In this document: positions 6,283 through 55,175 of the stretch, in pieces
Numbering within the stretch: position 1 is the first letter of the stretch
Layout: every line of letters begins with the position of its first letter
Source: Spiroplasma endosymbiont of Polydrusus cervinus
GTDB lineage: Bacteria; Bacillota_I; Bacilli_A; Mycoplasmatales; Mycoplasmataceae
Assembly: GCF_964019755.1 (NCBI RefSeq)
Contig: NZ_OZ026469.1
Coordinates: 248,001-312,000 of the forward strand
Length of the DNA: 64,000 nucleotides
Reading direction: 5' to 3'
The notes under the pieces: generated by a model
The model's input: only the letters and a program-made list of their open reading frames with translations
The model's database searches: none
What the model was told of the DNA's origin: nothing
Made by a program: the position numbers and the translations under genes

Positions 6283-6587
6283 TACCCTCACTATTTTTTT
6301 GTTTTCAAAAATCATATCTACTTTCCATATCTTTTTTTCAGTTTTCATAACCAGTTATCATAGTTGGTTGAATGCCTTGAATATTATATCAACTTACTTC
6401 TGGTGATGCATAAGTATTTACTTTATCAGGTGGACACGGATACATATTATACATTAATAAATCTCTTGAATTCATTACTTTTTTATTAAATTCACCTTTA
6501 ATAATTGGTCTACAAATCACAGGCATATCAAAAAAAGATCGGATTACCATAAAATTTAACTGCCATTGCTCTAACGCCTGGATTCGC
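6283..6587 (-). pseudogene. phage virion protein, C-terminal fragment
   Basis: Minus strand encodes the region after PGVRAMAV..., matching 36290-36595 of the third phage copy (motifs NSRDLLMYN, YNIQGIQPTMITGY). It is cut at 6283 by the IS end and at 6587 by an inversion breakpoint. Its N-terminal two thirds are at 9344-10340 in the opposite orientation. Confidence 0.6.
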
Positions 6588-7677
6588 CAAGCCGGAAAGA
6601 AAAATTAAAAGCATTTGCCGATTTGAATAAATATAAATTAGTTATTGATTGAAGAGAAGAATGTGACCAATTTCAACAAAAAGATTTAAGTGATTTAGAG
6701 TTTGCTATTCGTGGTTATAAAGAAAAAATAACAATTAATACATATAATCCCGAAAGTTTAAAAAGATATATTGTTGGTTATTGTAATGAATTAATGCTTT
6801 TTAATGAAGAAATAATGCGTAGTAAATATGAACAAATTAAATATATTGAAAAATGAAGTATGAAAATTATTATTCATTATTCTAGTTGAAGATTAAATTA
6901 TGAATTACCACAAAATAAAGTTAATGAACAATTAAGATTAGAACAATTAGATATCGAACGATCAAGAGTATGGAGTTGAGGACTACCTGGTAATACTAGT
7001 GGGTCAATCTTTGCGAGATATATTGATATTATGCAAGCAACAGATATTTATTCAACCAACGAAATTATTAGGTGGTGTTGATAGTGCTAATGCCACTAGT
7101 CCAAAAGGACATACCACTGCTGCTAGTTTTTTGATTATATAATTCATTTGATAAAAAATCATATAAAGTAGCAGAATATAATCATTCAAATTCTACACAG
7201 CAATTTAAAACTGAATTAGAACAAGTAAAAGATATTTTAGAGTTTTATAACAATCAATTAAATCAATACTTTAATTTAATACAACAAGGAATATCAATTA
7301 ATGTTAATGATAGTGCTTATTCAACATTGCAAAGTTTAAATCGAGAGAAATATAATTATACTTTTGGTCAATATATGACATTTAAACCAGCACAAAAACA
7401 GAAATTTAAAATAAGACATCGTATTGAGGCATTTACAATGTTAATAAATACAAACCAATTAAAATGATTATGAGAAAAATGTCCTGTAAGTAAAACACAA
7501 TATGAATTAATTCAATGAGAAGATAAGTCAGATGCCAGAGAAGAACGAATGTTAGATTTATATGATGATACATTTGATAGTGATTTTTATGCTTTACATT
7601 TTGAATTAGTTAATATGGTTAAACATAATAGTTCAGCAGATTATAAATTATGACAGCAAAGGGAGTGAATAACTTAA
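6588..7677 (+). pseudogene. phage terminase large subunit, C-terminal part (copy A)
   Basis: Starts in mid-gene (SPSRKEKLKAFADLNKYK) and matches 22936-24029 of copy B. It contains the Walker B-like LVIDWREE and the RNase H-like nuclease start GGVD. An extra T near 7048 and a TAG at 7081 disrupt the frame. The ATPase N-terminus lies inverted at 10341-10704, so terL is split by inversion of 6588-10340. Confidence 0.65.
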
Positions 7678-7955
7678 TGAAAAAAGATATTTATGTAATC
7701 CATGATGAGCGTGTAATAAATGCAAAAAGACCTTATATGTCTGTTTGTGGACAGGTTAAAAAAAGACTTTGTCAAGAATTAAAAAAAGATAATATCGCAA
7801 TATGTAAATTAAATTTATATAACGAATATATTAAAAAATATCAAAAAATTAAAGTATGTGTACAAGTTTTAGAAAATGAACCAAATTTATTAACAGTAAA
7901 TATTATTAATTATGCACTTATCTTAAAATTAAAGGAGCAAAATAACCGTGAATAA
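7677..7955 (+). CDS. phage protein between terminase and portal, 92 aa (copy A)
   Basis: ATG overlaps the terL stop (TAATG); AGGGAG at 7660-7665 sets the start at MKKDIYVIHDERVINAKRP. Basic, with conserved CGQVKKRLCQEL. Nearly identical to 24029-24307. It overlaps the portal GTG by 8 nt, indicating translational coupling. No known family recognised; its position suggests a small head-assembly protein or a late-gene regulator. Confidence 0.6.
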   Translation: MKKDIYVIHDERVINAKRPYMSVCGQVKKRLCQELKKDNIAICKLNLYNEYIKKYQKIKVCVQVLENEPNLLTVNIINYALILKLKEQNNRE

Positions 7956-9340
7956 TACTTTTCCTAGTTTACTAAACTTAAATCATATTAATAATGTTTT
8001 AAAATTTTATAATTATGATTGAACAATTAATTTAGCAAATATTATTGCTCGCCATCAAATGCGATTAATAAATGGTAAAGATATTTTATTTAAGTCTCAT
8101 CGTAAAGACATTTTAGAAAAATTAAATTGATGATATCAAACTTATAAAATAAAAAAAGTTAGATAAAAATGAATTAACAACAAGTTTAATGGGTAAAACT
8201 ATCTTTGGTTTATTAGAAACTAGTGATGGAAATATTGATTTATGAATTAACCCTTTTAACTTTACATCTCGTGTAAGTAAAATAAACGAAATTGAACAAG
8301 GTGCTGATATTTGATTAAATTATCACCAATCAGACAGTGGATTTATTTTAAATTTAATTTGTACCAAAGATAAAATAGTTATTAAAGGTTGGCCAAAAAA
8401 TAACGAAATAGTTGTTGGATAAAGCAAAACACAAATTGAAGATAATGTTATTAGACCTGTATTAATACAAGAATTTAAAAACAAATTAGGTATTGTACCT
8501 TTTTGAGAAATGATTAATGAGCTCAATCCATTATTCTTATCAACATCAACTACTTTAAATCCATGACCCACAATGGCAAATTGTTATAAATTACAATTTG
8601 ATTTAGAAGATAGTTTTAATATTAAATCAAAAGAAAGATGAGCAAATCGTACGCACTGATATGGAATATTAGACGATGATTTAATGACTGCCTATAACAA
8701 AGGTAATAAAAAAGTATTACAAGATGCTTTTGATGATATTTTTATTCAATCAGGTCAATCAGCAGTAGATGGACAATTATCCCAATCTTTACAAGTAGTA
8801 CAAGGGACACCAACCTTAGAAACATATACTGAAGACCAAAAAGCAATTATTGAGCAAGTATATTTAGCCTGCCATTTTTCTAGTCCATTTGGTGATAAAT
8901 CAGATAATGACCAGAATAAAACCCAATCATTATTAACTAAAAAAAAAGACTTAGAAAAACAAGCATATTTACAAGCATATCGTAAACAATATTATACTAA
9001 AATGTTTGATACTGTTTTAAAATATTATGGTTTATGGAACGGTAGTGGTGAGCGCCCTTATGGATTTGATTTTATTAGTGCTAGTTTAGTTGACCAAATG
9101 CGACAAAATGAATTAATTACTGCTAGATTAGATAATGGCACAATGGAACCAGTAAGAGCCATAACTGAATATGACAATATTGATGAATTAGAAGCAAAAA
9201 AATATTATGAAAAAATAAAAGAATGACAAGATAAATTACAAACAAAAGAAATCGAACATAATAATAAATTAATGGAATATGATGAAACTTTTAATAATCA
9301 AAATGCCTTACAAGGTAGAACAGAAATAAAGGAGAATTAA
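7948..9340 (+). pseudogene. phage portal protein (copy A, disrupted)
   Basis: GTG start after AAAGGAG. Aligns over its length with the intact copy at 24300-25694, but a 2-nt deletion near 8155 shifts the frame, and CAA has become TAA at 8420-8422. The C-terminal half (MTAYNKGNKKVLQDAF onward) is open. Portal assignment rests on position after terL, size and the long alpha-helical C-terminal part. Confidence 0.6.
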
Positions 9341-9343
9341 AAA

Positions 9344-10340
9344 ATGAGTAAAATTAATCCAGGCGTTATAGAAGAATTAAGAAGACAAGCCCACGATACT
9401 TTAAATAGATATTAGAGAAAATATACGAGATAATCGCCATTGAATGGTATTTCAGTTTAATGTCTATAGTTCATATATTCCTGATACTGAAACAGGTTGA
9501 AAACCTAATAATGCTAAACCAAGTGATTATGGTAGTTATTCAAGAATATTTAATAATATGGAAAGCACTATTGCCCAATGACAAGACAGTTTAAAAATAG
9601 TTCAAAAACATAAAGGTGAAGAAATTAATATTTTAACTGTTGATGATTTTAAAAATCAACCGGTTAACTCAACTATATGAGCCAATAATGAAACACCTTT
9701 TGCGATTAAATTAAAAAATGAAAATAATAATGTTTATTGAAAATTAATTGATGGTGAAAATATTCATGATATTAATAGAATGTTAGCATACTTAAAGCAA
9801 TATAAATTAAGTTATTTTATTAATAATGATAATAAAGCCGATAATTTTTATATAAAAGAGGTTAAAGTTGGTAAATATTGAGATGCTTATATTATTGATG
9901 ATAGAAGTTCAATTCAATTTGGTGATGCTAAATTTGAACAAGTATTTACCCAACAATCAACAGAAAGACAGTATACTTTATTAATTTTAGATGAAGATGC
10001 TGATAAATTAAATATTAATGATTATTATAATTTTTATACTGTTTTTAATGATCCTGGTTTAAATATTGGTGGTGGTAATATAAATATTGCACCGCAAGAT
10101 AGACAATGATTATATCCATCAAGTGTTATTAATTATTATTCACCATATGATAGTAGTTTTTTATGACAAGAAATTACCTTTTCAAGTATTAATGACAAAA
10201 TTAGTAATAGTGGTTTATCAGTGCGACAATTTATTCAAACATCAGCGCCAGGTGAAGGTTATTGTTTTCCTAAAATAACTTATGATGAAAAAATAAATAA
10301 AGGTATTATTGAATTAGATGAGATTTTATTAAAAGACGTA
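9344..10340 (+). pseudogene. phage virion protein, N-terminal part (copy A)
   Basis: Starts MSKINPGVIEELRRQAHDTL just after the portal stop with GGAG. One inserted A near 9405 creates a frameshift (copy B lacks it). Downstream the frame is open with UGA=Trp for about 310 residues up to EILLKD at 10340, where the sequence switches to inverted terL. The remaining C-terminus is at 6283-6587. Likely a minor head or head-tail protein; no family recognised. Confidence 0.55.
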
Positions 10341-10704
10341 AATCTTTGTAATATATTTTGCTACCATTTGATAAAGTAAAAGTAAAATTTGATAAATTAA
10401 TAGTATAAGGTATATGATTTTCATCTAACATATTTCATATATTTGGAAAGACACTATCTTTTAAATCTTTACTTCAATACATACTAGCAATTATACAAAT
10501 TGGTTCTTTAATTAATAAACTAATTTTTAATAATTCACCAAACATTTTAATATTTGATATAGTCTTACCACTATATCGTGTCCCAATTTGAATAATTTCA
10601 TTTACTAATTCATATTTCTTAACAAATGGATATTTATTGCCAATACTACTATTTTGTAATAAGCAATAAGGAGTTTCTAACAAATAAGTAAAATTATTAA
10701 GCAT
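10341..10704 (-). pseudogene. phage terminase large subunit, N-terminal part (copy A)
   Basis: ATG at 10704 (MLNNFTYLLETPY). It contains the P-loop IGTRYSGKTISN and ends at the inversion breakpoint 10340/10341. The continuation is at 6588 on the opposite strand. Copy B (22567-24029) shows the ancestral continuous order. Confidence 0.65.
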
Positions 10705-10762
10705 TATTATCACTTTCTTTTTTAATATCTCTAATATCAGTTTGTAAATTAACTATTATTGG

Positions 10763-11095
10763 TTATTGATTATTTAAATTTAATTCTTTTTCAAGTTCTT
10801 TTTCTTGCAGTGAATACTTATGATTAAATGCACGCTGTCAATATAACCTAGTACCTTCTGGCGTTTTAACCATTTGTTTAATAAGTTCACTTTCTATTTT
10901 ATTAACTTGTTTTTCAAGTAAAGGTACTATCTTCTCGCTCTTGTAAGTTTCATATCTTCATCTGTTAGAAAGATTGAATTTATTGGTTAAATCATTTAAA
11001 GTATAGGGAATATTAGGTAATTTATCACTTCAAAACTGCTCTATTTTACGCTCAAATGTTCGTAAATTTGCTGTTTTTGGATTAAATTCTTTCAT
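10763..11095 (-). CDS. phage terminase small subunit-like protein (copy A, shortened)
   Basis: ATG at 11095 with AAAGGAG (MKEFNPKTANLRTFERKIEQ). 110 residues; compared with copy B (117 aa) a CAA to TAA change shortens the C-terminus. A basic helical region (LNDLTNKFNLSNRWRYETYK) looks like a DNA-binding HTH. The small-terminase role is inferred from position immediately before terL. The upstream region 11096-11392 holds a hairpin (AACCACAATGGTT) and the IS30 left end. Confidence 0.55.
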
Positions 11096-11257
11096 TTTTT
11101 ACTCCTTTTTGCATATTAAAATTGCTATTATTTAATGAATATGATTAAATAAAAGAGTAAGTTATAGAAATGTATAAAAGAACCACAATGGTTATTTTTT
11201 TATTACTTACATTTTACATCAAAATAAAAAAAGTAAATTACTTTACTCCTTTATTTT

Positions 11258-12546
11258 GTAATACAAGTAATAGAGATACAAATTTATTACTTATTACAAT
11301 TTAATTATATAATTCTTAAAATTTTTGTCAATATCTTTTTAAAAAAATAGTGTATAAATAAATTTAAATAAAAAGATTGGAGATACAAAGATATGAAAAA
11401 ATATACACATGTAAAATTTGATGAGCGAGATTTGTTTAAGGATTTATTATTATCTGATAGTTGTAAAAAGAAAAACGGCATAATTAATTTATCTGAAATA
11501 GCAAGACAAACTGGAAGAGATATTAATACTATTAAAAGAGAGATTAAGCGATTTAAAAATATAGAAGATTATACCCCGTATAAAGCACAAAAAGATTATA
11601 AACAAAAGCGGAAAAAATGTATTAAAAAACTACCCGAATTTACAGAAGAATAGAAAGAATGATTAAATTTACGATTTAATATTCTTCATGATTCACCAAC
11701 ACAAATTATTCATCGTTATTTTATAAAATTTGGTGCTAAATTTCCTGCTTGTGTTAAAACTTTTTATAAATGAATTAATTTAAAATTATTAGGTTTAAAT
11801 AAACAAAATTTACGACATCATGGTAAGAAATATAAAACGAAAGGAAAACCTGATAATCTTGGTAAATTAAATAATTTTAAATCAATATAAGATATTGAAA
11901 ATAAAAAATATAATGTTGGTTTATTTGAAATGGATACTGTAGTTGGTAAAGATCATCAATCTAGTAATTTAGTTTTAGTAGAACAATCAAGTAAAAATTA
12001 CTTTGTAATCAAATTAAAAAATAATACTGCTAATGAAGTTGTAGAAAAATTTAAAGATATTGTTATAAACAATAATTTAATTGGTAAAATTAAAGGAATA
12101 ATAACTGATAGAGGAAAAGAATTTAGTAAGTGGAGAGAAATGGAAATATTTGCTGAAACACAAGTTTATTTTTGTGATCCTGGTAAGCCACAACAAAAAC
12201 CATTAATTGAATATATGAACTCTGAACTTAGACATTGGTTTCCCAAATGAACAGATTTTAATAATGTTACGCAACAAGAAATAGATTGGGTAGTTAATAT
12301 TATAAATGATAAACTTCGACCATGTTTAAACTGAGTAAGTGCAAAAGCAATGTTTTTAAAAAATATTAAGTAAATTTTTATTAATTAAATTTAATAAATT
12401 ATTTTTTAGTGTGTCAAAATATGTTCAAAATAATAACAATTTAAAAATAATTTATTTTTTTAAAAAAATAGTTGCATTTATTTTAAATAATGTTGTTATT
12501 AATTTAACAAGAGATACAAATTTGGAGCTTGTATCTACACAATGCC
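11258..12546 (+). mobile_element. IS30-type element, family 1, copy 1
   Basis: Contains a disrupted IS30 transposase. The right boundary (...GTAGATACAC then AATGCC at 12546) is set by comparison with copy 2, which shares GGCATTGTGTAGATACAAGC and then diverges. The left border is approximate: the outside phage leader is common to both copies. It interrupts a phage gene (12547-12645). Confidence 0.6.
11393..12373 (+). pseudogene. IS30-family transposase (family 1, copy 1, two nonsense codons)
   Basis: 327 codons in one frame, interrupted by TAG at 11651 (Gln in copy 2) and TAA near 11888 (Trp in copy 2). N-terminal HTH (INLSEIARQTGRDINTIKRE). Catalytic core: D in FEMDTVVG, D in ITDRGKEF, E in PLIEYMNSELRHWFPK, followed by LRPCLNW typical of IS30. 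It is inactive as written. Confidence 0.8.
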
Positions 12547-12645
12547 ACTCACTTTATTAATTAAATTAACAAATTTATTTATTAAAGGTTTATTACCTAA
12601 ATTCTCTGCTAATAAAGTTAAAATTCGTAATATTAATAAATTCAT
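12547..12645 (-). pseudogene. N-terminus of a phage gene cut by IS30
   Basis: ATG at 12645, 6 nt after the stop of the gene at 12652, starting MNLLILRILTLLAENLGNKP. It runs into the IS30 end after about 33 codons. Family unknown. Confidence 0.4.
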
Positions 12646-16378: not shown

Positions 16379-16425
16379 AAAAAGAGATATTTAATTGACA
16401 TTACCATTAAATATCTCTTTTTATT
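16379..16425 (+). terminator. Rho-independent terminator after the lipoprotein gene
   Basis: Long stem AAAAGAGATATTTAA / TTAAATATCTCTTTT with a 12-nt loop, followed by T-rich sequence. Confidence 0.7.
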
Positions 16426-16477
16426 TTTAATTTGTTATAATTTTATTAACTTTTTATGATTTAGTTTTACAGTATAC
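16421..16477 (+). repeat. half copy of the palindromic GTATAC repeat
   Basis: Right arm only, ending TTTAGTTTTACAGTATAC. Compare the complete palindrome at 33873-34059. Confidence 0.65.
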
Positions 16478-16853
16478 AAATGCTAAATATGAAGAATTAT
16501 TAGAATGCTTAGAAAGCAGCACTTCTTTTATAAAAGAAGCAAAAATGAAATTTTTAAAAGAGACAATTAGATTAATTAAAAATAATGAAGAAGGTGTCAG
16601 AAATCAAACATTATGGAATAATGTTTGATTTCATATTGAAGGTGATATATCACATTACTGTAAGGGTGTTTTGGTTAAAAAAAGCAACTTATCATGAAAA
16701 ATCTTAAAAATAAATTAAATACTAGTATGATGAATTTTAAAAATAAAATTAATTTATTTAATACTAATGAACCATTAGAAGAAAATAGAATTAATTATTC
16801 AGTTAATAATTTTGTAAATAATAATTTGCAACCAAACTTATATTTTTATTAAT
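16478..16853 (+). pseudogene. ISLre2/UPF0236-like transposase, C-terminal remnant
   Basis: The reading NAKYEELLECLESSTSF ... WFHIEGDISHY ... SNLSWKIL resembles the C-terminal EGxxSH...W signature of UPF0236/ISLre2 transposases. It is frameshifted near 16690 and continues as NLKNKLNTSMMNFKNK. The 5' part is missing, cut at the repeat end at 16477. The next stretch, 16854-17030, holds only AT-rich sequence with a possible TTGACA box. Confidence 0.4.
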
Positions 16854-18693: not shown

Positions 18694-20574
18694 TTATTTT
18701 CATTTTATTTTAAAACAAATATTTTTATTGAAAGAATAAAATTGGTTTTCTTTAAATTTAAATTTTGATACTTCAATTTTCTTAGCTTCTGGTTTAATTT
18801 TTAGTTCATCAAAAATAATGAAATCATTAACATCAAGGTTAAAAATTGTTGTTTTTTGTTCATTAATGTAGGGATAAAAATTATTTCAAATTGTTTTAAT
18901 TGCCGCGGTTTTTTCAGGAGAATGAATAACCTTATTTAATAACATACCAAAAAATTTTTTTGTTAATTTTAAAGTAGCAATATTCTCTGGTTTTGTTATC
19001 TCTAACGTTGTTTGTTGTAAAATTTTACTTAAATCAATTTTGAAAGTTTGATTAACAACCAAATCATCAATAAATTTATTTCCGGCTGTTGGTAAAGCAG
19101 CAATATTAAAACTATAATTTATAATTTCGGGGTTTTTTTTGCCTTGTTCATTTGTTTTAAAATATTTTAACTCAAAATATTTTTCAAAAACCTCATTTTC
19201 ATATCCTAAAAATTCCATTACTTTTGTTTCAATTACTGTTGGCAGTTTATCAACATAATTATCTTCACCAATAACAATATTATTATTTAAATACTTTCCA
19301 AATTTTCACGTTTGCAAACTATGAAAATTAACATATTCTTTTTCGTACATAAAACCATTTTTACGGAATTTTCGCGGCGCTCCTCACTGCGCATAAATTG
19401 CTAATCCTAACCCAATGACCGCAATTAAAAGTAAAACTGTATAATCTAATGCCCGATGGTTTTTAATAAATAAAGTTGATGGGTCATCTCGTTGTGTTTC
19501 TAAGACAAAACGAATTAAATTCCATAAAAAGAAATAAAAACCAGTTTGTACTCCACTCTTTGTTATTAAATAACCCTCCGGATTATTTAATTTTGTTAAA
19601 GCAGCACTATCGTTATGTCATCATTTTTTAATCTTATCCTTAAAAGTTAGTTTCTCTTTCCAGCTAAGTTGGCTTTGCATTGATTTTGGCATTTCATCTA
19701 AGACTTTTTGGTTTGGCATATAGTTAAAGTATGCTTTATCCCATGCTTCTTTTCATGTCATTTTATCGGGTTTAATGTATTTCTGATTAAAGAAATGAAT
19801 AAAATTATATTTTGAATTAAACGGATATTCTTTGGGATTTTTTTTTCATGGTTTTTTACCAAATAATTGCCCAGCAAAAGGAATGAAAAAAGTAATAAAT
19901 AACCATGCTAAGAAATTGAAAAATGATTCATATAAAAAGATTGGTTGACGGAAAACAATCTGACCACTATCCATTTCTGGTGATAAACCTTGTAATTGTC
20001 ATAAATTATCCCGAATAAAAGCTGGTAATCAACGTAGCGAATCATATGAAGTAACACTTCCTAATAGCTCATGATTAAAGAAATTACCTCAACGTCCTAA
20101 TACTTGCCCTAATAAAATATTTGGAATAATACAATCAATATAAATTAAAAGGGAAACTTTTGCTTTCCGACCAACAAAGCCAAAAACAATTAATCCTGTA
20201 ATTGTGCCAAATAAGACACCACCATGAATACTCATTCCTGCTTTTCAAAAAGCAAATAAAGATCAAAAGGGAACATCACCAGGATCTAACACTCAAGGAT
20301 GATTAACATCATTATTAAATTTACCAAAAAAACTAGCGCCGAATAATGAAAATGGAATAATAGCAAAAATTGACCAAATTAATGGCTCAATTGGGACTTT
20401 TTTTATTTTTAACCAAATAAAGCAAGCTAAAACCGAGAAAATCATTCCCAAGGTAATAAAAAAAGCATACATATGAATTCACCCCCCATATGTGGCTAAA
20501 ATATGATGTGGCGTATTGTTTGGCATAATTCATCCTGAATTTGGGGGACTACTTGTTAATAAAAGACTATTCAT
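18694..20574 (-). CDS. lgt: prolipoprotein diacylglyceryl transferase Lgt
   Basis: Transfers diacylglycerol from phosphatidylglycerol to the lipobox cysteine of prolipoproteins in the membrane, the first step of lipoprotein maturation. ATG at 20574 with AAGGAGCG. 626 aa and open throughout with UGA=Trp. Residues about 1-290 form the multi-membrane core: HGGVLFG, the signature GQVLGRWGNFFNHELLG and the PIFLYES motif. The core is followed by a further membrane segment and a soluble C-terminal extension of about 250 residues, making it roughly twice the usual bacterial length, as in some other Mollicutes. A palindromic repeat ends only 17 nt upstream of the start codon, and its arm carries a promoter-like sequence facing lgt. 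Confidence 0.9.
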
Positions 20575-20591
20575 TTAATTTTTCGCTCCTT

Positions 20592-20725
20592 GTATACTGT
20601 AAAACTAAATCATAAAAAGTTAATAAAATTATAACAAATTAAAAATAAAAAACAATAATCACAAAAAATATTAAATTAAAAATATTTTTTGTGATTATTA
20701 TTTTTTATTTTTAATTTGTTATAAT
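20592..20725. repeat. palindromic GTATAC repeat, right arm truncated by IS30
   Basis: Starts GTATACTGTAAAACTAAATC next to the lgt ribosome binding site. The left arm, the centre and most of the right arm are present; the right arm stops at ATAATT where IS30 copy 2 begins. The left arm read on the minus strand contains TTGTTT-N16-TATAAT pointing at lgt. Confidence 0.7.
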
Positions 20726-22010
20726 TGGCATTGTGTAGATACAAGCTCCAAATTTGTATCTCTTGTTAAATTAATAATAACATTATTTAAAATAAATGCA
20801 ACTATTTTTTTAAAAAATAAATTATTTTTAAATTGTTATTATTTTGAACATATTTTGACACACTAAAAAATAATTTATTAAATTTAATTAATAAAAATTT
20901 ACTTAATATTTTTTAAAAACATTGCTTTTGCAGTTACTAATTTTAAACATGGTCGAAGTTTATCATTTATAATATTAACTACCCAATCTATTTCTTATTG
21001 CGTAACATTATTAAAATCTGTTCATTTGGGAAACCAATGTCTAAGTTCAGAGTTCATATATTCAATTAATGGTTTTTGTTGTGGTTTACCCGGATCACAA
21101 AAATAAACTTGTGTTTCAGCAAATATTTCCATTTCTCTCCACTTACTAAATTCTTTTCCTCTATCAGTTATTATTCCTTTAATTTTACCAATTAAATTAT
21201 TGTTTATAACAATATCTTTAAATTTTTCTACAACTTTATTAGCAGTATTATTTTTTAATTTGATTACAAAGTAATTTTTACTTGATTGTTCTACTAAAAC
21301 TAAATTATTAGATTGATGATCTTTATCAACTACAGTATCCATTTCAAATAAACCAACATTATATTTTTTATTTTCAATATCTCATATTGATTTAAAATTA
21401 TTTAATTTACCACGATTATCAGGCTTTCCTTTCGTTTTATATTTCTTACCATGATGTCGTAAATTTTGTTTATTTAAACCTAATAATTTTAAATTAATTC
21501 ATTTATAAAAAGTTTTAACACAAGCAGGAAATTTAGCACCAAATTTTATAAAATAACGATGAATAATTTATGTTGGTGAATCATGAAGAATATTAAATCG
21601 TAAATTTAATCATTCTTTCTGTTCTTCTGTAAATTCGGGTAGTTTTTTAATACATTTTTCCGCTTTTGTTTATAATCTTTTTGTGCTTTATAAGGGGTAT
21701 AATCTTCTATATTTTTAAATCGCTTAATCTCTCTTTTAATAGTATTAATATCTCTTCCAGTTTGTCTTGCTATTTCAGATAAATTAATTGTGCCGTTTTT
21801 CTTTTTACAACTATCAGATAATAATAAATCCTTAAACAAATCTCGCTCATCAAATTTTACATGTGTATATTTTTTCATATCTTTGTATCTCCAATCTTTT
21901 TATTTAAATTTATTTATACACTATTTTTTTAAAAAGATATTGACAAAAATTTTAAGAATTATATAATTAAATTGTAACAAGTAACAAATTTGTATCTCTA
22001 TTACTTGTAT
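20726..22010 (-). mobile_element. IS30-type element, family 1, copy 2
   Basis: Left end GGCATTGTGTAGATACAAGC inserted in the palindromic repeat; the right border is approximate. As in copy 1, the far side leads into the leader of the small terminase gene, so IS and phage segment seem to have been copied together. Confidence 0.6.
20899..21878 (-). pseudogene. IS30-family transposase (family 1, copy 2)
   Basis: ATG at 21878. Inactivated by a 1-nt loss in an A run near 21655 and by TAA (Gln in copy 1) near 21568. The catalytic half (MDTVVDKDHQS, ITDRGKEF, IEYMNSELRHW) remains open. The lesions differ from those of copy 1. Confidence 0.8.
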
Positions 22011-22175
22011 TACAAAATAAAGGAGTAAAGTAATTTACTTTTTTTATTTTGATGTAAAATGTAAGTAATAAAAAAAGAACCATTGTGGTTCTTTTATACA
22101 TTTCTATAACTTACTCTTTTATTTAATCATATTCATTAAATAATAGCAATTTTAATATGCAAAAAGGAGTAAAAA

Positions 22176-22529
22176 ATGAAAGAATTTAATCCAAAAACAG
22201 CAAATTTACGAACATTTGAGCGTAAAATAGAGCAGTTTTGACGTGATAAATTACCTAATATTCCCTATACTTTAAATGATTTAACCAATAAATTCAACCT
22301 TTCTAACAGATGAAGATATGAAACTTACAAGAGCGAGAAGATAGCACCTTTACTTGAAAGACAAGTTGATAAAATAGAAAATGAACTTATTAAACAAATG
22401 GTTAAAACGCCAGAAGGTACTAGGTTATATTGACAGCGTGCATTTAATCATAAGTATTCACTGCAAGAAAAAGAACTTGAAAAAGAATTAAACTTAAATA
22501 GTCAACAACCAATAATAGTTAATTTATAA
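22176..22529 (+). CDS. phage terminase small subunit-like protein (copy B)
   Basis: ATG at 22176 after AAAGGAG; 117 aa (MKEFNPKTANLRTFERKIEQ). Basic helices and a helix-turn-helix-like LTNKFNLSNRW, with a Glu/Lys-rich coiled C-terminus (YSLQEKELEKELNL) that may oligomerise. Its position 37 nt before terL supports a DNA-recognition subunit of the packaging motor. Upstream, 22074-22096, is a hairpin AAAGAACCA/TGGTTCTTT. Confidence 0.55.
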
Positions 22530-22566
22530 ACTGATATTAGAGATATTAAAAAAGAAAGTGATAATA

Positions 22567-24029
22567 ATGCTTAATAATTTTACTTATTTGTTAGAAACTC
22601 CTTATTGGTTATTACAAAATAGTAGTATTGGCAATAAATATCCATTTGTTAAGAAATATGAATTAGTAAATGAAATTAATCAAATTGGGACACGATATAG
22701 TGGTAAGACTATATCAAATATTAAAATGTTTGGTGAATTATTAAAAATTAGTTTATTAATTAAAGAACCAATTTGTATAATTGCTAGTATGTATTGAAGT
22801 AAAGATTTAAAAGATAGTGTCTTTCAAAATATATGAAATATGTTAGATGAAAATCATATACCTTATACTATTAATTTATCAAATTTTACTTTTACTTTAT
22901 CAAATGGTAGCAAAATATATTGCAAAGGTTTACATTCGCCAAGCCGGAAAGAAAAATTAAAAGCATTTGCCGATTTGAATAAATATAAATTAGTTATTGA
23001 TTGAAGAGAAGAATGTGACCAATTTCAAGAAAAAGATTTAAGTGATTTAGAGTTTGCTATTCATGGTTATAAAGAAAAAATAACAATTAATACATGTAAT
23101 CTCGAAAGTTTAAAAAGATATATTGTTGGTTATTGTAATGAATTAATGCTTTTTAATGAAGAAATAATGCGTAGTAAATATGAACAAATTAAATATATTG
23201 AAAAATGAAGTATGAAAATTATTATTCATTATTCTAGTTGAAGATTAAATTATGAATTACCACAAAATAAAGTTAATGAACAATTAAGATTAGAACAATT
23301 AGATATCGAACGATCAAGAGTATGGAGTTGAGGACTACCTGGTAATACTAGTGGGTCAATCTCTTTGCGAGATATATTGATATTATGCAAGCAACAGATA
23401 TTATTCAACCAACGAAATTATTAGGTGGTGTTGATATTGCTAATGTCACTAGTCCAAAAGGACATACCACTGCTGCTAGTTTTTGATTATATAATTCATT
23501 TGATAAAAAATCATATAAAGTAGCAGAATATACTCATTCAAATTCTACACAGCAATTTAAAACTGAATTAGAACAAGTAAAAGATATTTTAGAGTTTTAT
23601 AGCAATCAATTAAATCAATACTTTAATTTAATACAACAAGGAATATCAATTAATGTTCATGATAGTGCTTATTCAACATTGCAAAGTTTAAATCTAGAGA
23701 AATATAATTATACTTTTGGTCAATATATGACATTTAAACCAGCACAAAAACAGAAATTTAAAATAAGACATCGTATTGAGGCATTTACAATGTTAATAAA
23801 TACAAACCAATTAAAATGATTATGAGAAAAATGTCCTGTAAGTAAAACACAATATGAATTAATTCAATGAGAAGATAAGTCAGATGCCAGAGAAGAACGA
23901 ATGTTAGATTTATATGATGATATATTTAATAGTGATTTTTATGCTTTACATTTTGAATTAGTTAATATGGTTAAACATAATAGTTCAGCAGATTATAAAT
24001 TATGACAGCAAAGGGAGTGAATAACTTAA
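22567..24029 (+). pseudogene. phage terminase large subunit (copy B, frameshifted)
   Basis: ATG at 22567 (MLNNFTYLLETPY); an upstream GTG at 22558 is less likely. The ATPase half has P-loop GTRYSGKT and Walker B-like LVIDWREECDQF. The nuclease half starts GGVDIANVTSPKGHTT. A 2-nt duplication (CTCT for CT) near 23362 shifts the frame, giving a stop about 17 codons later. Downstream the frame is open to TAA at 24027. Restored length is about 487 aa, normal for TerL. Confidence 0.75.
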
Positions 24030-24307
24030 TGAAAAAAGATATTTATGTAATCCATGATGAGCGTGTAATAAATGCAAAAAGACCTTATATGTCTGTTTGT
24101 GGACAGGTTAAAAAAAGACTTTGTCAAGAATTAAAAAAAGATAATATCGCAATATGTAAATTAAATTTATATAACGAATATATTAAAAAATATCAAAAAA
24201 TTAAAGTATGTGTACAAGTTTTAGCAAATGAACCAAATTTATTAACAGTAAATATTATTAATTATGCACTTATCTTAAAATTAAAGGAGCAAAATAACCG
24301 TGAATAA
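24029..24307 (+). CDS. phage protein between terminase and portal, 92 aa (copy B)
   Basis: Same gene as 7677-7955 with one substitution (LANEP for LENEP). Start overlaps the terL stop as TAATG and follows AGGGAG; the end overlaps the portal start by 8 nt. Lys-rich, with two Cys-containing segments (CGQVKKRLCQ, AICKLN). Unknown function; conservation and tight coupling suggest an essential packaging or head role. Confidence 0.6.
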   Translation: MKKDIYVIHDERVINAKRPYMSVCGQVKKRLCQELKKDNIAICKLNLYNEYIKKYQKIKVCVQVLANEPNLLTVNIINYALILKLKEQNNRE

Positions 24308-25694
24308 TACTTTCCCTAGTTTACCAAACTTAAATGATATTAATAGTGTTTTAAAATTTTATAATTATGATTGAACAATTAATTTAGCAAATATTATTGC
24401 TCGCCATCAAATTCTATTAATAAATGGTAAAGATATTTTATTTAAGTCTCATCGTAAAGACATTTTAGAAAAATTAAATTGATGATATGAAACTTATAAA
24501 ATAAAAGAGAAATTAGATAAAAATGAATTAACAACAAGTTTAATGGGTAAAACTATTTTTGGTTTATTAGAAACTAGTGATGGAAATATTGATTTATGAA
24601 TTAACCCTTTTAACTTTACATCTCGTGTAAGTAAAATAAACGAAATTGAACAAGGTGCTGATATTTGATTAAATTATTACCAATCAGACAGTGGATTTAT
24701 TTTAAATTTAATTTGTACCAAAGATAAAATAGTTATTAAAGGTTGGCCAAAAAATAACGAAATAGTTGTTGGACAAAGCAAAACACAAATTGAAGATAAT
24801 GTTAGACCTGTATTAATACAAGAATTTAAAAACAAATTAGGTATTGTACCTTTTTGAGAAATGATTAATGAGCCCAATCCATTATTCTTATCAACATCAA
24901 CTACTTTAAATCCATGACCCACAATGGCAAATTGTTATAAATTACAATTTGATTTAGAAGATAGTTTTAATATTAAATCAAAAGAAAGATGAGCAAATCG
25001 TACGCACTGATATGGAATATTAGACGATGATTTAATGACTGCCTATAACAAAGGTAATAAAAAAGTATTACAAGATGCTTTTGATGATATTTTTATTCAA
25101 TCAGGTCAATCAGCTGTAGATGGTCAATTATCACAATCTTTACAAGTAGTACAAGGGACACCAACCTTAGAAACATATACTGAAGACCAAAAAGCAATTA
25201 TTGAGCAAGTATATTTAGCCTGCCATTTTTCTAGTCCATTTGGTGATAAATCAGATAATGACCAGAATAAAACACAATCATTATTAACTAAAACAAAAGA
25301 CTTAGAAAAACAAGCATATTTACAAGCATATCGTAAGCAATATTATACTAAAGTTTTTGATACTGTTTTAAAATATTATGGTTTATGAGATGGCACAACA
25401 GGTGAACGTCCTTATGGATTTGATTTTATTAGTGCTAGTTTAGTTGACCAAATGCGACAAAATGAATTAATTACTGCTAGATTAGATAATGGCACAATGG
25501 AACCAATAAGAGCCATAACTGAATATGATAATATTGATGAATTAGAAGCATCAAAATATTATGAAAAAATAGAAGAATGACAAGATAAATTACAAACAAA
25601 AGAAATCGAACATAATAATAAATTAATGGAATATGATGAAACTGGTAATAATCAAAATGCCTTACAAGGTAGAACAGAAATAAAGGAGAATTAA
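24300..25694 (+). CDS. phage portal protein (copy B, intact)
   Basis: GTG at 24300 after AAAGGAG; 464 aa, continuous with UGA=Trp. The order terS-terL-unknown-portal, the size and a long helical C-terminal region (TPTLETYTEDQKAIIEQVYL ... LLTKTKDLEKQAYLQAYRKQ) fit a portal that forms the DNA entry ring at the capsid vertex. It is the only phage structural gene larger than the scaffold that is undamaged here. Confidence 0.65.
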
Positions 25695-25697
25695 AAA

Positions 25698-25796
25698 ATG
25701 AGTAGAATTAACCCAGGAGTTATGGAAGAATTAAGAAGACAAGCCCACGATACTTTAATAGATATCAGAGAAAACATAAAAGATAACAGACACTTG
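25698..25796 (+). pseudogene. phage virion protein, N-terminal stub (copy B)
   Basis: Begins MSRINPGVMEELRRQAHDTL with GGAG and ends after 33 codons at the IS3 insertion. Fuller versions are at 9344-10340 and 36044-37372. Confidence 0.65.
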
Positions 25797-30451: not shown

Positions 30452-30600
30452 GTTTTTTGGAGCTTCATCGTACATGATGCCATTTTATTAAGTTTTTATG
30501 ATTTAGTTTTACAGTATACAGGATTTAACATTGAATATTTACGACATTGTTTTTTATTTTTATCATGTATTTTTTGTGCTTTTGTAGCATTACAATTTAC
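30452..30600. mobile_element. mosaic of IS scraps
   Basis: In order: an IS30 family-1-like end (GGAGCTTCATCGTACATGAT), the right tip of the palindromic repeat ending at 30519 (TTTTACAGTATAC), and a 70-bp piece of the IS30 family-2 transposase identical in reading to 37885-37950. Confidence 0.5.
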
Positions 30601-32776: not shown

Positions 32777-33790
32777 TTACCTTGTTAAAAACAACCAAAG
32801 GCAAACCATCGCAATAATAAAAACAACAAACAAAAAACTAAACCATCAGACAACCTTAATTCTTAAAAACCATGGGTAAGAATAATAGCGATCATACAGT
32901 TTATGTGACTTCCCTTTTACAGCAATTAAATTAGATAATTTTAATGGTTTATCATTTTGATGTTCAATTGTTTCAACTACTTGTAAACTAGTATTAAACT
33001 CCGTAACCGTTTGAAAACGCTCACTGGGGTCTTTGGCAATTGCTTTTAAAATAACATTTTCCAAACTTTGTGGTAACATTGGATTCACTAAGCGCGGACG
33101 TAATGGTAATTCTTTAACATGCTTCACCGCAATAAATGTTGGATTTTTCCCAACAAACGGCGCTGTTCCAATTGCTAACTCATATAATATAATTCCTAAT
33201 GCATAAATATCACTGCGTTTAGTGGCTGGTTTCGACTGAACAATTTCAGGAGCCATATATTTTGAGGTTCCAATAATCTTGCTGCTTTCTAAATCTTCAC
33301 TATTTTCTAAAATTGCGACTCCAAAATCAGCAACTTTGATTTTTCCATCATATGAAATTAAAATATTTTCTGGTTTAATATCCCGGTGAATAATATCATT
33401 TTGGTGTGCTTCTGTAATTGCTAAATTAATTTCATCAAAAAAATATAATAATTCTTTAACAGTACACGGTCCTAATGTTAATAAACGGTCTTTTAAAGTA
33501 TAACCTTTCACTAATTCTAAAACTAAACAATGACGATCATATGCTTCAAATGAACCATAAACCTTAACAACATTATTATGGGAAAATTGCGCAATTGAAT
33601 TGTATTCTTTATTAAAACGTTCCACTGCTTCTTTATTCTTTGATAAAGTTAATGTCATAATTTTAATTGCAACATGGCGTTTTAATAACATATCGTACCC
33701 TTCAAAAACTTCAGCCATTCCACCATCAGCAATTTTAGCTAAAATCTGATATCGATTATGTAAAATCGTTCCAATTGTGATTGGTTTCAT
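32777..33790 (-). CDS. prkC: serine/threonine protein kinase PrkC-like
   Basis: Phosphorylates proteins on Ser/Thr. 337 aa: Gly loop GGMAEVFEG, lysine in VAIKI, catalytic HRDIKPEN, DFG in VADFGVA, MAPE, then a C-terminal membrane helix (WWFSFLFVVFIIAMVCLWLF) that follows two UGG/UGA Trp codons. No PASTA domains, as usual for wall-less bacteria. ATG at 33790 is chosen because the upstream GTG at 33799 lies in the ribosome binding site. Its usual partner prpC is on the other strand beyond a palindromic repeat. Confidence 0.9.
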
Positions 33791-33872
33791 TTTCTCCACC
33801 CTTTACTTTATTATTTCAACTTGTAAACATCATAACACAAAAAACACGAATAAAAAACAAACTGTAAATTGT

Positions 33873-34059
33873 GTATGCTGTAAAACTAAATGATAAAAAG
33901 TTAATAAAATTATAACAAATTAAAAATAAAAAACAATAATCACAAAAAATATTAAATTAAAAACAATATTTTTAATTTAATATTTTTTGTGATTATTGTT
34001 TTTTATTTTTAATTTGTTATAATTTTATTAACTTTTTATCATTTAGTTTTACAGCATAC
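33873..34059. repeat. complete 187-bp palindromic repeat (MITE-like)
   Basis: Two near-perfect arms of about 90 bp, ends GTATGCTGTAAAAC and GTTTTACAGCATAC. Each arm contains TTGTTT-N16-TATAAT pointing outward (right arm: 33996-34001 and 34018-34023), facing rlmN on one side and prkC on the other. Half or damaged copies occur at 16421, 20592, 30484, 35902, 38092, 51128 and 54600. One arm equals the 3' end region of the IS30 family-2 element, suggesting descent from it. Confidence 0.8.
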
Positions 34060-34080
34060 AATATAAAAATGGAGTGGAAA

Positions 34081-35121
34081 ATGATGACATCAATTTTTGA
34101 ATATCGGAAAGAGGAATTACAATTAGACTTAGTTGTGCATGGTTTTAAAAAATATTTGGCAGAGCAAATTTTTGATTGAATATATATCAAAAACATATAT
34201 TCTTTTGATGAAATGACAAATATTTCAAAAACGGACCGAATTAAATTACAAGAATATTATACAATTGAGCCATTAAAAATTGTTGTGCAACAACAATCAA
34301 AAGATGGAACAATAAAATTTTTATTTCAATTAGCAGATGACTATAAAATTGAAACAGTTTTAATGCCGAAAAATTATGGTAATTCAGTTTGTGTCACAAC
34401 ACAAGTTGGATGTAATATGGCTTGCACTTTTTGTGCCTCAGGGCTATTAAAGAAGACGCGTAATTTATCAACTGCTGAAATTATCCAACAAGTTATGATG
34501 GTTAACCGTTACTTAGCAGCAACGCAAGATCGTGTTAGTCACATTGTTGTAATGGGGATTGGGGAACCATTTGATAATTTTGATAATACCCTTAAGTTTG
34601 TTAACATTATTAATGATGCAAAAGGTTATCAAATTGGCGCTCGTCATATTACAATTTCAACTTGTGGTTTGATTCCTAAAATTAAACAATTTGCGGAGTT
34701 AAAAACGCAAGTTAATTTAGCTATTTCGTTGCATGCACCAAACAATACGATTCGTAATCAATTAATGCCAATTAATAAAGCTTACCCAGTGGAAAAACTA
34801 ATGGGTGCTGTGCGTTATTATATTGAATTAACTAATCGTCGGGTTACTTTTGAATATATTTTAATTGAGGATGTTAATGATAGTCGTGAAACAGCGTTAG
34901 AATTAGCAAAATTAATTCGGGGATTAAATGCTTATGTTAATTTAATTCCCTATAATACGGTCGTAGAAAATGGTTATCAACGTAGCACTAAAATTAATCA
35001 ATTTTTTGAAACTTTACAACAACAAAAAATTAATTGTATTGTACGGCGTGAATTTGGTCATGATATTGATGCTGCTTGTGGACAATTGTGCGCTAAAAAT
35101 GAAGGGATTATTAGAAAATAA
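34081..35121 (+). CDS. rlmN: 23S rRNA/tRNA adenine-C2 methyltransferase RlmN
   Basis: Radical SAM methylation of A2503 in 23S rRNA and A37 in some tRNAs. 346 aa with UGA Trp at residue 33. N-terminal HhH-like region, radical SAM motif CNMACTFC, MGIGEPFDNFDNT, STCGLIP and the C-terminal catalytic Cys in DAACGQLC. Two ATG codons (34081 and 34084) follow GGAGTGG. The palindromic repeat ends 21 nt upstream and may supply its promoter. prpC follows after 2 nt. Confidence 0.93.
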
Positions 35122-37372: not shown

Positions 37373-37469
37373 TAGACTGCACCCAAAAAAGTAAGTAAAG
37401 AAAAAAAGTCTTTGCTAAACTTTAGACTGCACCCTGTTTAGTAAGTATTAATAAACAGGGTGCAGTCTA
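37373..37469. repeat. 97-bp IS3-derived mini-element
   Basis: First 50 bp equal the IS3 left end; then comes an inverted right end and, after an 11-nt loop, a direct right end, forming an 18-bp perfect hairpin TAGACTGCACCCTGTTTA...TAAACAGGGTGCAGTCTA. Both outer ends match the IS termini. No coding capacity. Confidence 0.7.
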
Positions 37470-38040
37470 GTCTAATACTTGCTTTTTTACTAAATAAAAT
37501 ATGATAAAAAAGTATTTTTGATTTACGATTTACTAAAACTAACAAATAAAAATTACCACAATCAAGAGTATACATTTCTCAAATTCCACTAAAACTTAAA
37601 TCATTTCCATAATCATTTAAAAATTGCTTATAATTTCTAATATTAAGTAATTTTCCACGATTATCATTTTGTTCCCCATTTTTTGTTTTTCTTTTTTTAT
37701 TTTTAAAATATAGCATTTCTTTTTTTAAATTAAAATAACCTAATTTAATATATTTATACATTGTTTTAAAACATACACCAAATTTTACATTATATTGTAA
37801 TTCATACGAAGTAATAATATTTTGTGGCGAACAACCAAAATTATTATATTCATTAGAAAAATGACTTAATTCTTGTGAATTTAACATTGAATATTTACGA
37901 CATTGTTTTTTATTTTTATCATGTATTTTTTGTGCTTTTGCAGCATTATAATTATTAATATTATCAAAACATATTTAACTCTTGCCAAATAGTTCTATAA
38001 TCTCTATTCATTTGCTTAGAAATTTTTCGAATATTAATGT
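37470..38040 (-). pseudogene. IS30-family transposase, family 2, N-terminal fragment
   Basis: Reads NIRKISKQMNRDYRTIWQEL (HTH), a frameshift near 37970, then MLNSQELSHFSNEYNNFG ... and a start of the catalytic domain (YTLDCGNFYLLVLVNRKS). It stops at the mini-element. Same family as 54772-56997. Confidence 0.65.
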
Positions 38041-38091
38041 TTGTAAATTGTAAATACCAAATCATAAAAATATAAAGGATAGTAATTATTT

Positions 38092-38179
38092 TTAATTTAA
38101 TATTTTTTGTGATTATTGTTTTTTATTTTTAATTTGTTATAATTTTATTAACTTTTTATGATTTACTTTTACAGTATAC
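38092..38179 (+). repeat. half copy of the palindromic GTATAC repeat
   Basis: Right arm (TTTGTGATTATTGTTTTTT ... ACTTTTACAGTATAC), including the outward TTGTTT-N16-TATAAT toward 38181. Confidence 0.65.
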
Positions 38180-38180
38180 A

Positions 38181-38345
38181 ATCTATTAAAATTAAAGATG
38201 AATCAGAAAAGAAAGAAATTAATATAAAATATTTTGTTTTAAAATATTAAAATATCAAGAATTAATATTAGCCGAAGAGAAAACATTAGAGAAGCTTGTT
38301 AATCCTAGTCATATGTTAACGAACATTGATGATTTTTTTAAATAA
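38181..38345 (+). pseudogene. C-terminal fragment of an unknown protein
   Basis: SIKIKDESEKKEINIKYFVL, then after a frameshift ELILAEEKTLEKLVNPSHML to TAA at 38345. It has no start and begins exactly at the repeat end, so the 5' part was lost there. Not recognised. Confidence 0.35.
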
Positions 38346-38417
38346 TATAAAGGGAAAGATAACGAAAAATTAACAATTTAATTAGGAAAATATAATAAAA
38401 TTATTGATAGGGAACTA

Positions 38418-38445
38418 TTGCTTTATTATATTTTCTAGTTATAAT
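38418..38445 (+). promoter_or_regulatory. promoter of the Asp23-family gene
   Basis: TTGCTT (38418-38423), 16-nt spacer, TATAAT (38440-38445), 33 nt before the ATG at 38479. Confidence 0.5.
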
Positions 38446-38478
38446 TAATAATGTTAATTTAGTTTAGTGGTGATTTTT

Positions 38479-38817
38479 ATGATTGAGAAAATTAATGTAG
38501 CTAAAATTGCAGATTTGGTTCATGCAGCAGTTATTACAGTACCTGGGGTAGCTGGGTTCGCAAAAATTGATGATACTGAAAATAATGAAGAAAATGTGAT
38601 AATGTTGCTTAAAGATTACTCACAGTCAATTAAATTGAGACAAGATGGTCGTAACTTTTATATCGATATGTTTATAATTTTGCTTGAAGGAGTAAATATT
38701 AAGGATATTGCGCAAGAAATACAAATTAGGATTAAATATGAGTTAGAAAAGTTAGATATTTATTCAAATGACATTATGATTTATGTTAATGTAAATATTC
38801 AAGATTTATTAATTTAG
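38479..38817 (+). CDS. Asp23/Gls24 family envelope stress-type protein
   Basis: 112 aa. MIEKINVAKIADLVHAAVIT followed by VPGVAGFAKI and later FYIDMFIILLEGVNIKDIAQEIQIRI match the Asp23/Gls24 fold (YloU type). In Firmicutes this gene sits directly before fakA, as here. ATG at 38479 is preferred to GTG at 38467, which coincides with the weak GGTG binding site. Role not established; likely membrane or cell-surface associated. Confidence 0.8.
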   Translation: MIEKINVAKIADLVHAAVITVPGVAGFAKIDDTENNEENVIMLLKDYSQSIKLRQDGRNFYIDMFIILLEGVNIKDIAQEIQIRIKYELEKLDIYSNDIMIYVNVNIQDLLI

Positions 38818-50887: not shown

Positions 50888-51127
50888 ATGGCACAAAAAC
50901 TTACTGGGATGGTACTCAATAAGCAACCTTATGGCAATGATAGTGAGATTGTTACTATTTTGTCTAATAAAGAACTCGGTAAATTAGTTTTTTTGCGCCA
51001 GGAGTGCAAAAAATTACATCAAAAAATTAGTATGCAGTGCAGTTTTTAGAAAATAGTGAATTTGAAATATTTTTAGCATATCAGCATAACAAATTAAATA
51101 AATTAAAGACCAGCAATTTATTAACAT
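50888..51127 (+). pseudogene. recO: recO, N-terminal fragment
   Basis: ATG at 50888 gives MAQKLTGMVLNKQPYGNDSE, IVTILSNKELGKLVF, as in RecO OB domains. A missing base near 50997 and a TAG (Gln expected) break it, and it is cut at 51127 by the GTATAC repeat/IS30 end. The matching C-terminal part is at 54366-54599 on the opposite strand, ahead of glyS. Confidence 0.65.
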
Positions 51128-51390
51128 GTATACTGTAAAAGTAAATCATAAAAAGTTAATAAAATTATAACAAATTAAAAATAAAAAACAATAATCACAA
51201 AAAATATTAAATTAAAAATATTTTTTTAATATTTATTTTTAAAATTATAAAATTAAACACAACAAAAAATAAATTTTACTAATCTTAACAAAAACTAATT
51301 TAATTTAAAAAAATTTTTTTAAAATATTGTATTGATGTAAAATTTTCCAAGCAAGGTCTAATTGTAGTATTTAATATATTGTAAATTGTA
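51128..51390 (-). mobile_element. IS30 family-2 element, 3' end fragment
   Basis: Begins GTATACTGTAAAAG, carries one arm of the palindromic repeat and the transposase C-terminus (RPCLENFTS...YFKKIFLN) on the minus strand. Matches 54600-54860. From 51391 to 51632 there is only a GTAAATTGTAAAT scar and a terminator. Confidence 0.65.
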
Positions 51391-54365: not shown

Positions 54366-54599
54366 AAAATAAATTTATTTTTCCCGCATTTCATAAATAC
54401 TACACGAAAAAAATACCAACTTTCGTTAAATAATACTCACATAACATTTTAAATAACATCATCAAAGCTTTTATATTAATCTTATTATGAAAATAAAAAT
54501 TATCATGAAAATTAACATTAAACATTTTAACTAGTTCAATTGACAAAAGATAATCGCTTGATAATAAACAATTTTTGCAAAGATATCCTTTGTATACTT
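54366..54599 (-). pseudogene. recO: recO, C-terminal fragment
   Basis: Minus strand reads KGYLCKNCLLSSDYLLSIEL, VKMFNVNFHDNFYF, then an in-frame TAA and MWVLFNESWYFF. The CxxC and position directly before glyS fit the end of RecO. It starts at the IS30/GTATAC end at 54600, mirroring the break of the N-terminal piece at 51127. Confidence 0.55.
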
Positions 54600-55175
54600 G
54601 TATATTGTAAAACTAAATCATAAAAAGTTAATAAAATTATAACAAATTAAAAATAAAAAACAATAATCACAAAAAATATTAAATTAAAAATATTTTTTTA
54701 ATATTTATTTTTAAAATTATAAAATTAAACACAACAAAAAATAAATTTTACTAATCTTAACAAACACTAATTTAATTTAAAAAAATTTTTTTAAAATATT
54801 GTTTTGATGTAAAATTTTCCAAGCAAGGTCTAATTATGGTATTTAATATTTCTAAAATAGATTTTAATCTATTACGAATATTAATTAATGGCTCATTTTG
54901 AGCCAATCAACGCCTTATATCTCTATTTATTCTTTCTACTAATGCTTTCTGGCGAATTTTACCAGAATCACAAAAATAAACTCTTATTTTAAAGTGTTTT
55001 TCTATTGTTTTTCATCTATAAAATTCTTTTCCTCTATCGGTTTTAAAATACAACTAAATTTACTAATACCAATTTGTTTAATCATTTTCATTAAAATTGT
55101 TATACTAGACTGCACCCAAAAAAGTAAGTAAAGAAAAAAAGTCTTTGCTAAACTTTAAAGGAGGTGCATTTTTAT

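Follow-up and report, generated by a model that had tools for sequence, protein, structure and literature searches.

The palindrome at positions 33873–34059, between the divergent starts of prkC and rlmN, raises two questions: whether such a repeat can supply promoters to the genes on either side, and from what kind of element it arose. The sequence-only reading had proposed a portable two-way promoter serving neighbouring housekeeping genes, possibly a non-autonomous derivative of an insertion sequence (IS) of the IS30 family. The window, i.e., the whole 64,000-nucleotide stretch analysed, comprises bases 248001–312000 of a 1.12-Mb single-contig genome that uses genetic code 4. Where counts refer to a sample, it consists of the window and 20 further stretches (464 kb of 1.12 Mb) that were picked for their richness in IS ends, with uncurated gene calls made in this analysis.

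The palindrome and its flanking genes

The 187-bp palindrome is real: it is self-complementary at 184 of 187 positions, the exceptions lying in the central loop. When the outer T/A pair is counted (33872–34060), its perfect arms span 33872–33963 (− strand, toward prkC) and 33969–34060 (+ strand, toward rlmN). In RNA-type folding the palindrome core reaches a z of about −9 relative to shuffles, which is far too stable for a chance palindrome. As had been noted, an outward TTGTTT-16-TATAAT occurs in both arms, with TTGTTT at 33996 and TATAAT at 34018–34023 on the + strand, and TTGTTT at 33936 and TATAAT at 33914–33909 on the − strand. The proposed −35 role of TTGTTT adds little; the hexamer matches the sigma-70 −35 at three of six positions, and no good −35 is found at a spacing of 16–18 nt. 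Extended −10 promoters can work without a good −35, and each TATAAT is part of an extended −10 of the form TG-T-TATAAT (TGTTATAAT, at 34015–34023 on the + strand and 33909–33917 on the − strand), which points outward from about 37–42 nt inside the arm tip.

Is this motif one that the organism uses? With the arms excluded, TGNTATAAT occurs 10.4 times per 10 kb at 15–110 nt before called starts, compared with 0.30 in coding DNA and 2.0 in other intergenic DNA. Its density before starts is thus 35 times that in coding DNA, and the motif behaves as the organism's own promoter motif, a −10 in use as expected of a sigma-70 promoter. Of its copies in the sample, 99 lie in arms and 101 outside them. 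A consensus promoter scan of the palindrome region was uninformative, since its matches were no more frequent than in shuffled AT-rich DNA.

As had been described, the palindrome ends 21 nt before the ATG of rlmN (34081–35121, + strand); its other end lies 82 nt before that of the prkC-like kinase gene (32777–33790, − strand). The two sides differ in what became of the native promoter. In relatives the sequence upstream of rlmN reads ...TGATAAAATTATAATATATAAAAATGGAGTGG; here ATATAAAAATGGAGTGG comes directly after the palindrome end, so the arm occupies the place of the missing native −10 and substitutes its own. The start of transcription would be expected near 34030, giving a predicted rlmN leader of about 50 nt. 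Toward prkC, the native extended −10 TGTTATGAT, conserved in the relatives G012 and G010, is intact at 33837–33829 (− strand) between the left arm and the gene, and the left arm may therefore be redundant. Promoter supply to both neighbours, as originally proposed, is thus supported for rlmN and not for prkC: at this locus only the rlmN side looks taken over, and the palindrome would be a promoter replacement in one direction and possibly a redundant promoter in the other. In G012, rlmN and prkC lie on the same strand, and prkC starts about 1.9 kb further downstream than rlmN; since the two genes diverge from the palindrome here, the locus is a rearrangement junction.

The parent IS30-family element and the origin of the palindromes

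The suggestion that the arm equals the end of an IS30-family element proved correct. The arm is in register with the right end (IRR) of such an element, 3' of its transposase gene, so that the palindrome consists of two right ends head to head; on their inner side, many arms pass into the end of a gene whose product, ERINRDIRRWLGQNEPL..., is the C-terminal part of the transposase. Left parts, found via the element's upstream reading frame (26 in 464 kb), nearly always have the tip TGTAAATTGTAAATACCAAATCATAAAAAGTTAA, which indicates one element with two related but distinct ends, IRL and IRR. The terminal inverted repeats (TGTAAATTGTAAATACCAAATCATAAAAAGTTAA on the left, TGTATACTGTAAAACTAAATCATAAAAAGTTAA on the right) are related and some 20–40 bp long, as in IS30. 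Two transposase fragments from broken copies have the IS30 model NF033563 as their best match (E 5e-17 and 8e-22; 62 and 78 bits, against an 80-bit cut-off that is set for whole proteins), and the Pfam domains HTH_38 and rve are present in transposase fragments; the transposase belongs to the IS30 family. Six full-length copies were sampled, each about 1.6 kb from IRL to IRR, and the transposase is frameshifted in all six, which bears on present activity and not on family origin. The IS30 family duplicates 2–3 bp of its target; insertions at plsY and rnj show 3-bp target duplications backed by empty sites in relatives. At plsY a complete IS lies in the native −10 region (in the order CTATAATA, IS, ATAG, with ATAGTAAA as the flank after the IS) and G010 has the empty sequence at this site; the duplication upstream of rnj is AAG. 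At the other four full-length copies no target duplication was seen, possibly because they have been shuffled by recombination. The closest named transposases are those of Spiroplasma phages R8A2B (ORF3, 36% identity) and MaM-2019a (46%), which are virus-borne; the 187-bp palindrome has no match in phage records, plasmid records or Rfam. Between the left end and the transposase there is also a broken hydrophobic frame of about 65–100 aa (e.g., genome 133098–134704), for which no Pfam match was found.

This element multiplied in the present Spiroplasma lineage and later decayed. Genome-wide, the 30-nt arm tip occurs in 212 copies (103 forward, 109 reverse; up to 3 mismatches), against none for a reversed-pattern control, and the 148 right ends in the sample comprise 54 short paired ends, 33 with at least 180 nt of IS and 61 truncated ones. 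A pattern spanning the −10 and the tip finds 188 arms here and 0–11 in each of 13 same-genus genomes, being absent from eight of them; the exact 35-nt end has no match in GTDB r220 contigs. The search of relatives that had been proposed thus returned few arms per genome, and at 20 loci taken from four relatives only 2 arms lie before a plausible start, which we count against promoter takeover. We considered the truncated solo ends as a retroelement-like truncation series and dropped the idea; many lie against other IS ends or terminators, which is better accounted for by nested insertion and deletion.

Within the window, the copy 17 nt before lgt (18694–20574, − strand) lies where it had been reported, although it is one IRR arm plus part of another (20591–20726, − strand; −10 at 20633–20628) and not a full palindrome; the native −10 that relatives have before lgt is missing. 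A half copy, a single IRR arm at 38084–38180 (+ strand; −10 at 38138–38143), had been described as facing 38181–38479. The next start (38479) is 298 nt away, too far to count, and the link to that gene is weak. A transposase fragment of this element, the same sequence by eye, lies at 37438–37887 (− strand). Four further ends had not been listed: two 3' remnants of the IS ending in IRR at 51127–51386 and 54599–54858 (both − strand; −10 at 51169–51164 and 54641–54636), a truncated IRR arm at 16418–16478 (+ strand; −10 at 16436) fused to the T-run of a hairpin that resembles a terminator, and a 38-nt IRR remnant without a −10 at 30483–30520 (+ strand) that abuts an apparent other IS end.

How the palindromes spread is a matter separate from what they do, since a mobile palindrome would be compatible with promoter function. 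Full-length copies occur elsewhere in the genome, and the palindrome could be a true MITE, a non-autonomous IRR–IRR element moved by the IS30 transposase with the promoter as a by-product, as in Correia elements. It has the form of one, in that it is short, repeated and non-coding and ends on either side in the inverted repeats of the parent IS; about 16 near-full-length copies exist, many of uniform 187-bp size, both tips are ends that a transposase could recognise, and related palindromic copies are found in the relative G002. Two complete ISs carry clean 3-bp target duplications, but none was found at 15 full palindromes, whose flanks were read by eye; for want of these duplications we refrain from classing the palindrome as a MITE, and the earlier suggestion of a transposing derivative is unproven. 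The transposase that would have to move it is broken in every full-length IS sampled. Moreover, in G012 none of the three divergent pairs tested (prkC/rlmN, nusB/tyrS and tlyA/pfpI) is found as divergent neighbours, and the palindromes between them here thus mark junctions. Finally, private variants are common to the two arms of a palindrome. The arms are identical over the outer 85 nt in 13 of 15 full palindromes, though the palindromes differ among themselves, and shared private substitutions and indels are seen in the focal copy and the 14 others. This points to local copying or correction. We thus regard a mobile MITE as possible but rather doubtful, and recombination junctions as likelier.

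A small inverted repeat of IRR, ATTAAAAA CAATA TTTTTAAT, lies exactly at the palindrome centre and could be a starting point for fold-back copying. From these features we infer that the palindromes were probably formed or corrected in place by template switching, together with recombination between copies. The flanks of several palindromes are symmetric outward (11 nt at 138242, 14 nt at 340951), which could alternatively result from IS30-type insertion into near-palindromic targets. Symmetry of 8–14 nt at genome positions 138242, 340951, 531643, 375258 and 641210 appears to exceed what chance would give in AT-rich DNA. The paired ends at genome 463992, 472737 and 478655 have identical flanks three times over, likely a segmental duplication.

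Placement of IS ends and the fate of native promoters

Intact arms lie upstream of ffh, ftsY, nusB, tyrS, rpsT, greA, rny, rnj, plsX, plsY, tpiA, tkt and relA, and of tRNA-Trp, whose start directly abuts an arm. Names are based on NCBIfam for ffh, plsY, rpsT, greA, nusB, tyrS, plsX, rny, relA/spoT, tkt, tpiA, NAD kinase (ppnK), pepA (leucyl aminopeptidase), pepF, rnj, trpS, ftsY, lgt and rlmN, those of plsY, nusB, lgt, NAD kinase and pepA falling below the curated cut-off. The genes that we take to be prkC, tlyA and pfpI were named from our own reading of their sequences, and an AcpS identity was not confirmed at E 1e-15.

An outward start lies within 60 nt of 39 of 144 right ends and 4 of 64 left ends (Fisher p = 0.0004). 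Random intergenic positions would give 7%, but because live spacers are short this control is too lenient, and it was replaced by a comparison of gene starts with gene ends and by the promoterless ends of the same IS. Within 60 nt, ends with an intact extended −10 face starts and gene ends in a ratio of 37:28, compared with 6:35 for left ends and decayed right ends together (p = 1.5e-5). In the 464-kb sample the ends are thus placed non-randomly with respect to gene starts, and the random placement that would have spoken against the original proposal is not seen. The ratio of 37:28 is not significant alone (p = 0.32); what carries the signal is how it differs from the ratio of promoterless ends. 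The difference persists among right ends alone (37:28 with the −10 and 3:15 without it, p = 0.003) and among non-palindromic ends after removal of duplicated flanks (21:15 versus 4:18, p = 0.003). The extended −10 is intact in all 44 arms of sufficient length within 120 nt before starts, compared with 48 of 56 elsewhere (p = 0.009). A point against promoter takeover is that many arms have no start close by in the direction they face.

Native promoters were followed by locating 24 genes in G012 and G010 and comparing 22 upstream regions. For 12 of these (greA, plsY, ffh, rpsT, pepA, relA, tpiA, pfpI, ppnK, lgt, plsX and rlmN), the TATAAT of the relatives lies at or up to about 40 nt upstream of the homology breakpoint, and here it has been lost or displaced, with an arm instead. 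Against takeover, pepF and prkC keep their native −10 boxes after the arm. The nusB and tlyA genes are apparently operon-internal in relatives, and the flanks of tyrS and ftsY are ambiguous. The earlier claim of promoter supply to housekeeping genes therefore gains from three findings, i.e., a −10 of the organism's own type, non-random placement, and native −10 boxes lost or displaced, as at rlmN and lgt; it does not extend to every gene next to an arm, as prkC shows.

Taken together, these comparisons make it probable that, after the IS30 burst decayed, IRR arms persisted as likely promoters of dozens of housekeeping genes, and they suggest that a decayed transposon took over part of the cell's gene control. 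Insertion upstream of a gene would cut the gene off from its own promoter. With IRR facing the gene, the insertion would be tolerated because the IRR promoter takes over; with the promoterless left end facing it, insertion would rarely be tolerated. The simplest reading of the placement data is accordingly a filter, in which a promoterless end between gene and promoter is lost by selection and an IRR there is tolerated. Arms would then outlast the decay of the transposase, and two IRRs that recombination or fold-back copying had placed head to head would form a bidirectional promoter cassette, as may be the case between prkC and rlmN. Actual transcription from the arms we infer from sequence.

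It is unlikely that target preference alone accounts for the pattern, the IS inserting into AT-rich promoter regions and its arms having no role in transcription. Breakpoints do often fall at a native TATAAT, as at plsY, and IS30 is known to favour its own ends as well as hot spots that are near-palindromic (PMC9333248). Such a preference predicts, however, that left and right ends are equally frequent before starts, whereas this position is almost never taken by left ends or by right ends without the −10, and among right ends alone it is loss of the −10 that predicts position. Slightly less probable still is a main role of the palindrome as an RNA hairpin, or as a terminator of transcription in both directions, in place of a promoter: the hairpins are very strong, and 11 of 16 of the 76-bp left-end palindromes have a gene end and no start within 60 nt, but the palindrome region holds no GC-containing stem followed by a T-run, a start lies within 60 nt of 13 of 24 IRR palindromes as against 2 of 16 IRL palindromes, and an arm directly abuts tRNA-Trp.

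A more inclusive account, which we offer tentatively, would retain promoter takeover and join several of these elements. IRRs, alone or paired in palindromes, would have replaced the promoters of many essential genes, 76-bp IRL–IRL hairpins would be portable terminators at gene 3' ends, continuing hairpin-templated correction would keep the arms identical, and palindromes would be rearrangement junctions at which both displaced neighbours acquire a promoter. Perfect 76-bp IRL–IRL palindromes occur at genome 641210–641287, 881338–881415, 398639–398716 and 375258–375335 (hairpin −47.6 kcal/mol), and palindromes of this kind lie mostly near gene 3' ends or between convergent genes, possibly as portable terminators. 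Because promoterless right ends are equally biased toward gene ends, the bias alone does not prove a terminator function of IRL.

Relation to known promoter-bearing elements

Single cases of IS-supplied promoters are well known. The closest comparisons are as follows: (i) Correia elements (CREE) of Neisseria are short repetitive elements that end in inverted repeats and carry sigma-70-like promoters; there are more than 120 copies, often directly upstream of genes (PMC10969869). The likeness is in the way of working only, as promoter-bearing repeats before genes. Sequence and host are different. In the present genome two copies of a single, identifiable IS30 right end meet head to head to form the unit, the majority of copies stand alone or belong to IS remnants, loss of native promoters is seen, and the palindromes lack target duplications. 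(ii) The high-copy IS481 of Bordetella pertussis shapes the transcriptome through its Pout and Pin promoters and drives genome rearrangement (PMC11774165). Its described effects are alternative and antisense transcripts, whereas here, to judge from placement, the primary promoters of housekeeping genes seem to have been replaced by an IS that has decayed and of which the end alone is kept. (iii) Ends of IS30-family elements can contribute to promoters, for example through the −35 hexamer of ISAba125 or an IR–IR junction promoter (PMC9330008, PMC9333248). The present element shares its transposase family with IS30 of E. coli and with ISAba125. Their promoters are hybrids that need a flanking −10, or junction promoters that drive the transposase; the right end here, in contrast, has its own complete extended −10, directed outward. 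By analogy, then, the palindrome would work like Correia elements and the IS481 promoters, and it is of the IS30 family by origin.

Three points appear to be new: the right end contains a complete outward extended −10, two right ends are joined head to head into a palindrome, and housekeeping promoters seem to have been replaced in such number within one genome. One IS end appears to replace promoters of many core genes for protein export, translation, RNA decay, lipid synthesis and a tRNA, and sister genomes within the genus keep the ancestral promoter state. How new promoters arise, how orientation filters IS insertions and what later becomes of IS ends can thereby be tested directly, one gene at a time. 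The arm could also serve as a promoter part in a group for which genetic tools are scarce.

Other repeats were seen in the window. Long near-identical phage-like blocks at 6294–12547 and 20726–25701, with frames that by eye are terminase- and portal-like, are inverted or direct copies of each other interrupted by IS elements, and positions 2010–4527 encode a protein in which a unit of roughly 117 nt (about 39 aa) recurs about 15 times.
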